From an uncultured Clostridia bacterium (GTDB lineage: Bacteria > Bacillota > Clostridia > Christensenellales > Borkfalkiaceae), in NCBI GenBank assembly GCA_944341895.1, contig CALVMB010000011.1:1-35351 (forward strand): 35,351 nt of DNA, read 5' to 3'. Shown piece after piece: positions 9,480 to 26,867 of this stretch. Position 1 is the first letter of the stretch. Each line of letters starts with the position of its first letter. The notes beneath the pieces were generated by a model. That model saw nothing but the letters and a program-made list of their open reading frames with translations. It did not search any database and was not told the DNA's origin. Position numbers and translations under genes: made by a program.

Positions 9480-10390
9480 AATATCCGAACGACAGCGATC
9501 TTTTCGACCTTTTCGGTGTCTGCCCGCAATGCGGCTGTTGCAACTGCTGCTGCGGCCAGACGACCGTCTATATGCGCGGAACGATGGGCCCGCCCGGCCC
9601 CACGGGCGCGCAGGGCCCCGCAGGACAAACGGGCCCCACGGGTCCGACAGGTCCCACAGGGCCGACAGGTGCAACAGGCCTCACAGGCCCCACTGGTCCC
9701 ACAGGTGCAACGGGTCCGACGGGGCCGAGCGGCGCCACGGGCGCAACGGGTCCCACGGGGCCGACGGGTGCGGACGGCGCAACGGGTGCCACAGGCCCTG
9801 CGGGCGACGCGGGCGCAACGGGGCCCACAGGCCCGACGGGTGCAACAGGCCCGACGGGCGCAACGGGCGCCACAGGCCCTGCGGGCGACGCGGGCGCAAC
9901 GGGCGCCACAGGCCCTGCGGGCGACGCGGGCGCAACGGGTCCCACGGGGCCGACGGGCGCAACGGGGCCCACGGGTCCGACGGGCGCAACGGGCGCAACG
10001 GGCACCGCGGCGACGCTTGCCGTAGGCACCGTGACCACGGGCGAGCCCGAGGATGCCGCGTCCGTCACCAATTCGGGAACAGAAAATGCGGCCCTGTTTG
10101 ATTTTGTCATTCCGCGCGGTGCGACGGGGACCAGCGGCGAGACGGGCGCAACGGGTCCCACGGGTCCGACGGGCGCAACAGGCGCAACGGGTGCGGCAGG
10201 CCCGACGGGTGCCACAGGCGCCACAGGCGCGACGGGTGCCACGGGGCCGACGGGCGCAACGGGCGCAACGGGGCACACCACATATGGGACAGCAAAAAAA
10301 CGATTCGGCAAGCCGCTTTATTTTCGGAAAAATACAACGCCGAACGCACACAGCCCGCAGGACATGCCTGCGGGCTGTGGATACAATTGA
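9476..10390 (+). CDS. Collagen-like surface protein, N-terminal part (gene interrupted)
   Basis: A 304-residue open frame. Residues 1-33 are a head with a cysteine cluster (C16, C19, C21, C22, C24, C25, C26). From G38 come Gly-X-Y repeats, mostly GPT, GAT and GPA, interrupted at about 177-213 by a non-collagen insert ([17 protein letters not shown]... to FDFVIPRG), and repeats again to G266. Residues 270-304 do not look native: the frame leaves the collagen pattern near HTTYGT, runs through a hairpin (10349-10379) and lacks the C-terminal globular domain expected in this family. That domain is present at 26409-26867. AAGGA lies upstream of the ATG, which overlaps the glycosyltransferase stop. 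I read this as the 5' half of a gene cut at about 10283. Confidence 0.85.
9587..10273 (+). repeat. Gly-X-Y coding repeats (9-nt periodicity)
   Basis: Degenerate 9-nt units encoding G-X-T triplets, in two blocks either side of the insert at about 10004-10115. Longer internal duplications are visible, such as the units encoding [10 protein letters not shown] at about 9800-9930. Repeats of this kind vary in number by slippage. Confidence 0.9.
10270..10289. other. Candidate left attachment site (attL)
   Basis: The left junction of the proposed element. GGGGCA (10270-10275) is the outer arm of the collagen-derived half-site, TA (10283-10284) the candidate crossover dinucleotide, and TGGGA (10285-10289) the inner arm of the element-derived half-site. 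The codons here (HTTYGT) align in frame with HIPYGT at the right junction. Confidence 0.6.
10283..10284. other. Candidate crossover dinucleotide TA, left copy
   Basis: TA at 10283-10284, paired with TA at 26409-26410. It is the centre of dyad symmetry in both the reconstructed uninterrupted site and the reconstructed circular-junction site. Confidence 0.55.
10349..10379 (-). terminator. Hairpin at the end of the glycan-uptake operon
   Basis: A 13-bp perfect stem (10349-10361 with 10367-10379). It lies 92 nt beyond the stop of the leftward beta-helix gene and inside the 3' tail of the truncated collagen frame. No U-tract directly follows on either strand, so its efficiency is uncertain. Confidence 0.5.
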
Positions 10391-10470
10391 TTCAGAGCGA
10401 TTGCCGTGCTCACATCCGCCGATCGGCGCCGACATGCGACCTGAAGATCGACGGCGCATTTTACGGCCGA

Positions 10471-25590: not shown

Positions 25591-26340
25591 ATGCAGACTT
25601 CGGCGCGGGAAACCGAGATCCTGAAAATTCTGGACAAAAACTACAGCGTGAGCATCAAAGAACTCGCAAAAACGCTCTTTGCCAGCGAACCGACCATCCG
25701 TCGGGATCTGAGCAGGCTGGAAGAGAAAAAACTGGTCATCCGCACGCACGGCCGCGTGATCGCCAACCCGATCGCCGCGGACGCGAACATCGCGCTTTCC
25801 GCGCGGGAACAGCAGATGTACGGCGTGAAACGCGCGCTTGCCGAAGCCGCCGCGGCGCTCGTTGCCGACGGATCAGTCATCATGCTGGACGCCTCCACCA
25901 CGGCGTCGCATCTCGTCCGATATCTGGAAAAGCGCAGCGAGATCATCGTCATCACCAGCGGGATCAAGACGGCATACATGCTCGGGCAGACCAATATCAA
26001 ATTCATCTGTACGGGCGGGGAAGCCATCAATGCATCCTATTCGTTGATCGGGCCTTCCGCCCTGCACACCGTCGGAACGTACAATGCGGACATCTGCTTT
26101 GTTTCCTGCCACGGCCTGTCGCCCGAAGGGCATGTGACGGACACCTCCGTGCCCGAAAATGAGGTGCGCCGCGCCATCCTGCGGCAGTCGAAGCGCAAAG
26201 TACTGCTTCTGGACAGTACCAAGATCGGGAACGGATGCTGGCACAATCTATGCGACGTCTCCGAATTCGACGACGTCGTCTGCAACGCGCCTCTGCCAGA
26301 CGGGCTGCAGAACAAAGTAAGGCATTTTATCCTTGCATGA
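25591..26340 (+). CDS. DeoR/GlpR-family transcriptional regulator
   Basis: 249 aa. The N-terminal winged helix-turn-helix reads VSIKELAKTLFASEPTIRRDLSRLEEKKLVIRTHGRV (about 18-54), the classical DeoR signature. The C-terminal effector domain starts near IMLDASTTASHLVRYL and contains ICTGGEAINASYSLIGPSA and KVLLLDSTKIG, which in this family bind a phosphorylated sugar. The start at 25591 has GGAGGG 5 nt upstream; the in-frame ATG at 25543 would overlap the promoter. Divergent from the HAD-phosphodiesterase operon, its likely target. Its stop overlaps an ATG of the collagen-derived frame by chance, because the proposed element end is only 69 nt away. Confidence 0.92.
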   Translation: MQTSARETEILKILDKNYSVSIKELAKTLFASEPTIRRDLSRLEEKKLVIRTHGRVIANPIAADANIALSAREQQMYGVKRALAEAAAALVADGSVIMLDASTTASHLVRYLEKRSEIIVITSGIKTAYMLGQTNIKFICTGGEAINASYSLIGPSALHTVGTYNADICFVSCHGLSPEGHVTDTSVPENEVRRAILRQSKRKVLLLDSTKIGNGCWHNLCDVSEFDDVVCNAPLPDGLQNKVRHFILA

Positions 26341-26867
26341 ATGCAAGCGTTCCGCGCCAAAAAGATGCGCCGCGGAAAGCAACTTTGCCGATGCGGCTGC
26401 ATATCCCATACGGCACCTGCCCCACTGGTGCCACGGGGGCGACAGGCAGCGTTCCGCTGAATACGCTGACGACGTACACCACGCCCACTTCGCCCGCAAC
26501 GACGGGCGAAGCGCTGGATTTCGACCGCAACGCCACCGTCAACGGCACGGCGATCTCGCATACCGCGGGCGCCTCGACGGTGACGCTGGCGCAGACGGGA
26601 ACGTACTATGCGCAGTATGCGGGCACAGCCGCCCCCGCCTCCGGTTCCTCCTATCCCGTCACGAACACGCTGCAATTTGCGCTGAACGGAACGCCCGTCA
26701 CGGGGGCGGCGGTACAGCATGTTTTCCCCGCCGCGGGACAGACGGAAACGCAGTCCATGGCGGTGATCTTCAACGTGACGAGCGCACCCGCGACGCTGAG
26801 CGTCGTATCGAGCGGCGGCAACTTCAATTATTCCAACTACAACCTGAACGTATCCAAGATCGGCTGA
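26337..26867 (+). CDS. Orphan C-terminal part of the collagen-like protein (interrupted gene)
   Basis: An open frame of 176 residues from ATG 26337, or 158 from ATG 26391, neither with a convincing start context. From codon 26409 it reads [18 protein letters not shown], a remnant of Gly-X-Thr repeats, then a globular domain (TTYTTPTSPATTGEALDFDRN, TYYAQYAGT, VTNTLQFALNGTPV, TLSVVSSGGNFNYSNYNLNVSKIG). This is the jelly-roll C-terminal domain typical of clostridial and Bacillus collagen-like spore proteins. No signal, promoter or head region belongs to it, and a good terminator follows. The first 18-24 residues would be element sequence. Best explained as the 3' half of the gene that begins at 9476. 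Confidence 0.8.
   Translation: MNASVPRQKDAPRKATLPMRLHIPYGTCPTGATGATGSVPLNTLTTYTTPTSPATTGEALDFDRNATVNGTAISHTAGASTVTLAQTGTYYAQYAGTAAPASGSSYPVTNTLQFALNGTPVTGAAVQHVFPAAGQTETQSMAVIFNVTSAPATLSVVSSGGNFNYSNYNLNVSKIG
26404..26423. other. Candidate right attachment site (attR)
   Basis: TCCCA (26404-26408) is the element-side arm, TA (26409-26410) the candidate crossover dinucleotide and TGCCCC (26418-26423) the outer arm of the collagen-derived half-site. TGCCCC is the exact complement of GGGGCA at 10270-10275, and TCCCA of TGGGA at 10285-10289, at equal distances from TA. Confidence 0.6.

Follow-up and report, generated by a model that had tools for sequence, protein, structure and literature searches.

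The stretch of DNA analysed here (“the window”, 35,351 nucleotides in full) is contig 11 of a metagenome-assembled draft genome of an uncultured Clostridia bacterium (1.47 Mb in 63 contigs, 82% complete), and it contains a collagen-like gene that is split by an element carrying a large serine recombinase. The head frame, which begins at 9476, encodes a Cys-rich head and collagen repeats, lacks a C-terminal domain, and ends in a foreign tail that runs to 10390 through a hairpin at about 10349-10379 (-29 kcal/mol, z -6.2). The tail frame, which ends at 26867, encodes a short collagen remnant and a C-terminal domain, lacks a head, and is followed by a terminator-like hairpin (z -2.3) and then by T-rich sequence. 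An initial annotation of the window had described two half-genes of exactly this kind with a large serine recombinase between them; all of these features are present, and the recombinase has the Resolvase, Recombinase and zinc-ribbon domains of the large serine type. The features that define the split gene, its operon and the two attachment sites of the element (attL and attR) are as follows.

8315..8341, + strand: promoter of the sigma-K type (AC, 17 nt, CATACAAT), ahead of the glycosyltransferase-collagen operon
8388..9479, + strand: family 2 glycosyltransferase (GT), directly upstream of the collagen gene
9476..10267, + strand: collagen-like gene, head part, 264 codons before the core
10268..10269, + strand: attL core dinucleotide AC
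10270..10288, + strand: left element arm, ending in GGG, with 16 nt from core to GGG
10349..10379, + strand: hairpin in the foreign tail of the head frame
21149..21173, + strand: promoter-like site of the mother-cell type (AC, 15 nt, CATATGAT), ahead of the small-protein gene
21225..21419, + strand: small protein, TTG start assumed, a candidate recombination directionality factor, overlapping the recombinase start at 21401
21401..23026, + strand: large serine recombinase, 541 amino acids from the ATG at 21401
26405..26423, + strand: right element arm, starting in CCC, with 16 nt from CCC to core
26424..26425, + strand: attR core dinucleotide AC
26424..26867, + strand: collagen-like gene, tail part with BclA-like C-terminal domain, 147 codons and stop
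26883..26904, + strand: terminator-like hairpin after the tail part

Of 300 relatives, 62 have the C-terminal domain, counted as one match each, and in 14 members of the genus it belongs to a single open frame that joins a Cys-rich head, collagen repeats and the C-terminal domain, which is the uncut homologue that the initial annotation had proposed should be sought. The uncut genes have the same GT upstream in most cases and a PHP gene downstream in many; since the uncut gene lies between the same neighbours in relatives, the gene in the window is a split version of one gene. Among the 40 genomes of the genus, 17 have the interruption, 13 have the uncut gene only, and 10 could not be judged (in seven the contig ends in the gene, in G028 the head runs off the end of the retrieved sequence and no tail was found, in G251 the tail was unread, and G141 gave no match). 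Both ends of the interruption are seen in eight of the 17 (the window, G112, G151, G161, G166, G181, G211 and G221), the right end only in five (G124, G191, G201, G246 and G256), and the left end only in four (G067, G226, G231 and G236), of which G067 has an uncut copy as well. Because the same arrangement recurs in other species, the split arrangement exceeds what chance would produce. Two further observations concern collagen genes of this group. In G067 (L055:16822-19421) a very short head with attL is followed, about 1.6 kb on, by an entire collagen gene that has a head of its own, and contig 63 of the window's own genome (L170) bears a second collagen-like gene, with GETGPQGPKGDT repeats rather than the G-X-T type, which runs off the contig end.

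The ends of the element follow a common pattern, collagen-AC-(16 nt)-GGGA on the left and TCCC-(16 nt)-AC-collagen on the right, and the left and right arms are inverted repeats of one another. In a set of 19 left and 29 right ends, picked by hand from loci that show this pattern and excluding a degenerate internal site in G211 (L121), the core AC is at the expected place in 19/19 attL and 29/29 attR. Both ends are available from 12 genomes, in eight of them on a single contig (the window, G105, G112, G211, G220, G221, G260 and G282) and in four on two contigs (G151, G161, G166 and G181), and in all 12 attL/attR pairs a join at AC has matching cores, is in frame and free of stops, and carries the G-X-Y repeat on, in most cases as G-X-T-G. 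In the window the element measures 16,156 bp from AC to AC, and the core supplies the first two positions of a Thr codon; a join at this point yields 411 codons, and the G-X-T repeats run unbroken over the seam. The initial annotation had placed the join at TA (10283-10284 with 26409-26410) and had counted 421 codons after it. The TA join is in frame in the window, but TA matches in 8/12 pairs and introduces stops in 5/12, and the crossover best supported by the relatives is AC, 15 nt away on each side. A palindromic uninterrupted site of the TA type gave 10 matches in 8 of the 40 genus genomes, all at the limit of three mismatches, against 18 for a reversed control pattern. A join at GC matches in 8/12 pairs and is out of frame, and the joined site attP built on GC has 0 matches in the 40 genus genomes. 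When the spacing was left free, the unsymmetrical pairs 22/19, 22/28 and 25/16 also matched in 12/12, like 16/16, and these matches are put down to the collagen period; the 16/16 spacing is preferred for its symmetry and because third-base variation switches sides there, the base after AC being A in 14/19 attL and G in 12, A in 10, C in 5 and T in 2 attR. These sequence comparisons make it almost certain that the interruption is a mobile element with its crossover at AC.

The interrupted gene resembles those of spore-surface filaments in both its protein and its promoter. A model of the C-terminal domain, of moderate quality (mean predicted local distance difference test score, pLDDT, of 66.5, with residues 1-43 below 50), has the BclA and F-BclA C-terminal domains as its best fold matches; a sequence match in the PDB, 9h38, bears the label FliK in the chain table and the title F-BclA in the fold table. 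As modelled, the gene would combine a collagen repeat with a BclA/C1q-type C-terminal domain, as BclA-like proteins do. Upstream of the GT operon, the pattern AC-N15-17-CATANNNT occurs in 17/32 regions, compared with 17/566 controls (which begin at the first ATG of open reading frames, so that some lie inside operons and some come from related loci). Independent regions were defined, for this and the following promoter comparisons, by merging in gapped alignment at 70% or 65% likeness; with regions 70% alike merged the pattern occurs in 11/19, as against 15/296 AT-rich controls (p 6e-9), and the -10 element CATANNNT in 15/19. Its position is also consistent, with 20 of the 25 CATANNNT sites in the 32 GT upstream regions lying at -47 to -59. 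A sigma-E-type pattern before the GT shows no enrichment (2/34, with 1.6 expected). On the modelled fold and this promoter, the interrupted gene is probably BclA-like and expressed in the mother cell. In the genus, Spo0A and SpoIIIAE (over the cut-off) are each found in 33 of the 40 genomes, and each in 14/14 of the best assemblies.

Of 31 recombinase loci, 30 encode a conserved protein of about 60 amino acids directly ahead of the recombinase; the exception has no upstream sequence, and the profile used was seeded with 13 of the 30, so that 17 are independent finds. Within 170 nt before the small protein, CATANNNT occurs in 20/27 regions (86/566 controls), one of these 20 sites, in L118, being 169 nt upstream, and the -35 AC together with CATANNNT in 8/27 (17/566 controls). 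After gapped merging at 70%, the corresponding figures are 18/25 against 69/296 AT-rich controls (p 1e-6), or 17/25 against 48/296 within 100 nt and 17/24 with the window removed, and, for the full pattern, 8/25 against 15/296 (p 1e-4). At 65% merging CATANNNT persists in 13/19 (p 8e-5). The sigma-E-type pattern is not enriched before the small protein (1/20, with 0.6 expected), and neither is the sigma-K-type pattern over the 260 nt that precede the recombinase (1/29, with 1.2 expected). In ten elements the recombinase begins at least 90 nt from the small gene, and 8/10 of these gaps contain a sigma-A-type promoter where 0.8 would be expected; two pairs among the ten are near-copies, which leaves 6/8 distinct gaps, one by way of a weak match. 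Among recombinases that are clearly not beside collagen, three (L126, L128 and L130) have the small protein without CATANNNT, and a fourth (L124) has CATANNNT.

The element belongs to a larger family. Recombinase matches number 74 in 59/301 genomes, and the loci were read for 30, including that of the window. Collagen repeats follow closely after the recombinase in 22/30 of these loci, as found by script and with L121 a doubtful member of the 22; of the other eight, two are at contig ends and six are not beside collagen (the window, G226, G285, G278, G254 and G064). The targets also include collagen-like genes with other C-terminal domains, they are spread over four genera, and interrupted genomes occur in genera of the family beyond the window's own. 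A tree of 26 recombinases mixes the genera, in some cases within groups of starred support, with genus labels still clustered: the window's genus requires 3 changes compared with 7.7 in shuffles, and 0/500 shuffles gave a value as low. Recombinase identity correlates with GT identity at rho 0.35 (p 0.06, 28 pairs) and with tail identity at rho -0.02 (21 pairs), and the missing clear correlation with host genes says little, because that between GT and tail identity is likewise weak (rho 0.22). Tandem insertions in L114, L136 and L137 have only a short collagen piece between the attR on the recombinase side and the next attL. In G211 an attP-like site without collagen (L045:11575-11700, downstream of the L121 recombinase) lies between two island halves, the second of which ends, as judged by eye, in an apparent C-terminal remnant of a recombinase.

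Complete elements range from 4.8 to 38 kb, and their cargo, for which part of the proteins of each element other than the window's was scanned, is varied: G112 carries GH35, PfkB, AraC and LacI regulators and ABC proteins; G211 a rhamnosidase and a trehalase; G221 an ABC permease, a LacI regulator and a leucine-rich repeat protein; and G260 a PLD-SNF2 helicase, a type IIG restriction-methylase, a YhcG nuclease, a NikA-like protein and a relaxase. No close relative of the recombinase was confirmed in viral contigs, and the exact right arm has 0 matches there; at E 1e-60 the recombinase finds distant relatives only, all below 60% identity, in plasmids (22 records) and phages (8 records). Among the plasmid matches is TndX, with 34% identity over 82% of the query.

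Published sporulation gene-intervening elements that were found lie in sigK, spsM, gerE or yabG (yin/yabG: PMC10747680). In SPbeta of Bacillus subtilis the recombinase is a product of growing cells and the 58-amino-acid SprB is specific to the mother cell (PMC4191935), and in the skin element of C. difficile a sigma-A promoter drives the recombinase while sigma-E controls the directionality factor (PMC5025042). The element studied here is like SPbeta in spsM in that a spore-surface gene is split, a serine recombinase is accompanied by a small accessory protein, and frame-restoring excision is predicted; it differs in that SPbeta is a phage whose excision has been demonstrated by experiment (PMC4191935), while excision is here a prediction and the targets are the collagen repeats of many species. 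It is like skin in sigK in pairing a sigma-A-type recombinase promoter with a mother-cell-type promoter of the candidate directionality factor, and unlike it in that skin is prophage-like and lies in a sigma-factor gene (PMC5025042), whereas the target here is a structural collagen gene and the cargo is metabolic or defensive. On sequence alone, the promoters of the small protein and the recombinase follow the logic of SPbeta and the C. difficile skin, and the element is likely to work as these two do. A further parallel is gin in gerE of Bacillus cereus, another non-phage island with serine recombinases, which lies in a sporulation gene and carries restriction-modification genes; gin has three recombinases, another target and an excision demonstrated by experiment (PMC5595907), where excision is predicted here. 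The domain layout of the recombinase resembles that of the DUF4368-type large serine recombinases, which are multi-targeting (PMC10083194), the DUF4368 match being 24.2 bits in the window (just below the cut-off of 25) and 43.7 bits in the G260 relative; unlike those recombinases and TndX, the targets here are mostly of one kind, collagen G-X-T repeats with core AC (PMC10083194). The interrupted gene itself is like BclA and the sgtA-bclA3 pair in its collagen repeats, its BclA-type C-terminal fold, the GT directly upstream and the sigma-K-type promoter (PMC7157674, PMC3789822). It differs from them in being interrupted, and a literature search for interrupted collagen-like or exosporium genes gave no interrupted bclA-like gene among the matches listed.

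A lineage of gene-intervening islands in BclA-like and other collagen-like genes is real and recurrent, and it is undescribed as far as the literature search reached. The best overall explanation, to which we give a probability of roughly 0.6, is that a recombinase-integrated island occupies a BclA-like gene and is excised in the mother cell of the sporulating cell. On this view the window's mobile genomic island carries the large serine recombinase that inserted it among the G-X-T repeats of a spore-surface collagen gene of the BclA type. During sporulation a sigma-K-type promoter would produce the protein of about 60 amino acids in the mother cell, this protein would act as the directionality factor, and the recombinase would then excise the island. 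As the comparisons show, removal of the island at AC would give back an open reading frame with a perfect repeat; the sigma-K-driven glycosyltransferase-collagen operon could then be read through to the C-terminal domain, and the island would stay in the spore. The final steps may no longer work in the species from which the window comes. Regulated mother-cell excision in the lineage is reasonably probable, and continued activity in this exact genome is doubtful; most likely we are dealing with a new lineage of sporulation gene-intervening islands that is perhaps inactive in the window's genome. The broader proposition that in a Clostridia lineage the spore-surface collagen repeats serve as a reusable landing array for large metabolic and defence islands, sometimes two in succession, which are removed at each sporulation through a mother-cell-controlled directionality factor of about 60 amino acids, is more tentative and receives a little less than even odds from us. 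If it is true, the islands would persist in the germ-line DNA, and the intact spore filament would be a product of the dying mother cell.

Several results weigh against excision in the mother cell. The joined attP at AC has 0 matches in 398 genomes at three mismatches and 0 exact matches in viral contigs, and no excised circle was found in the genome and viral-contig searches. The small protein has no match in Pfam or NCBIfam, and because no known family matches, its role as a directionality factor is a guess. The promoter test for the small protein was framed after the motif had been seen before the GT and in the window, and the full pattern is weaker at 65% merging (5/19, p 0.004). SpoIVA-family matches exceed the cut-off in 33/40 genus genomes and are strong (above 170 bits) in only 10/40; those below 170 bits are partial matches and are read as Der-type GTPases, and the non-sporulating control Thermotoga matched the family as well. 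The window's own genome, at 82% completeness, has no Spo0A or SpoIIIAE match and a single SpoIVA-family match, over the cut-off at 49.6 bits, which covers part of the profile and looks like a Der-type GTPase. The suggestion in the initial annotation that the gene is a spore or cell-surface gene is favoured by the BclA-like domain and the sigma-K-type promoter. In addition, a 3.4 kb block of phosphodiesterase, HAD hydrolase and DeoR-family regulator genes lies at 23030-26400, between recombinase and attR in the window, unlike in most of the relatives read.

That block and the missing sporulation-gene matches bear on the possibility that the window's copy is a relic, with the element fixed in this species and both excision and the collagen gene lost. 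The displacement of the recombinase from attR fits such a relic, as does the composition of the element, with a GC content of 0.65 at 22.5-25 kb compared with 0.55-0.57 for each 2.5-kb bin between 10 and 22.5 kb; since the block intervenes and part of it has a GC content nearer that of the host flanks, the copy may be composite or damaged. The recombinase, the small-protein frame and both gene halves are nevertheless open, both arms are present, and the genome is only 82% complete. Loss in this species is accordingly possible at clearly less than even odds, and it is compatible with mother-cell excision as the best explanation for the lineage.

The varied cargo, the relaxase and NikA-like protein of the G260 element, the mixing of genera in the recombinase tree, the tandem insertions, the range of collagen-like genes hit and the multi-targeting habit of DUF4368-type recombinases (PMC10083194) would all suit plain mobile islands, for which collagen repeats are an abundant and dispensable landing pad, insertion inactivates a non-essential surface gene, and excision serves transfer only. 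Such islands would not predict a mother-cell-type promoter element before the small protein or a sigma-K-type promoter for the interrupted operon, and we consider this account unlikely. If growing cells varied their surface display by reversible phase variation, the frame-restoring sites and the sigma-A-type recombinase promoters of some elements would fit, but both the operon and the small protein have promoter elements of the mother-cell type, which makes this account improbable. An assembly chimera or two unrelated genes, conceivable in a metagenome-assembled genome of 63 contigs, is very improbable, because seven other genomes each have this structure, matching arms included, on one contig.

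In 17/40 genomes of a single genus, and in further genomes elsewhere in the family, one recombinase lineage has inserted into collagen-like genes, apparently on independent occasions. If removal is programmed, these genomes would offer a natural comparative system for bacterial somatic DNA elimination, and islands would have a means of spreading at little cost. The small proteins would then form a new candidate family of directionality factors, and the recombinases a lineage whose target in coding sequence is short and repetitive.

The remaining genes of the window's element, and the right-hand neighbour of the split gene, are as follows.

10471..12420, - strand: cargo, right-handed beta-helix protein
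12386..14074, - strand: cargo, lipoprotein-like, without Pfam match
14091..15014, - strand: cargo, ABC transporter permease
14990..15970, - strand: cargo, ABC transporter permease
15967..16779, - strand: cargo, response regulator with AraC-type helix-turn-helix
16742..18466, - strand: cargo, sensor histidine kinase
18632..20950, - strand: cargo, 772-amino-acid protein without Pfam match
23172..24746, - strand: type I phosphodiesterase-like protein, between recombinase and attR
24640..25488, - strand: HAD hydrolase
25543..26340, + strand: DeoR-family regulator
26972..27796, + strand: PHP-domain protein, right-hand neighbour, seen in many relatives too

No phage structural family was found among the 10 window element proteins scanned against PHROGs, and no relaxase among the 11 larger ones scanned. 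The product of 12386..14074 is taken as a solute-binding protein from its position beside the two ABC permeases.

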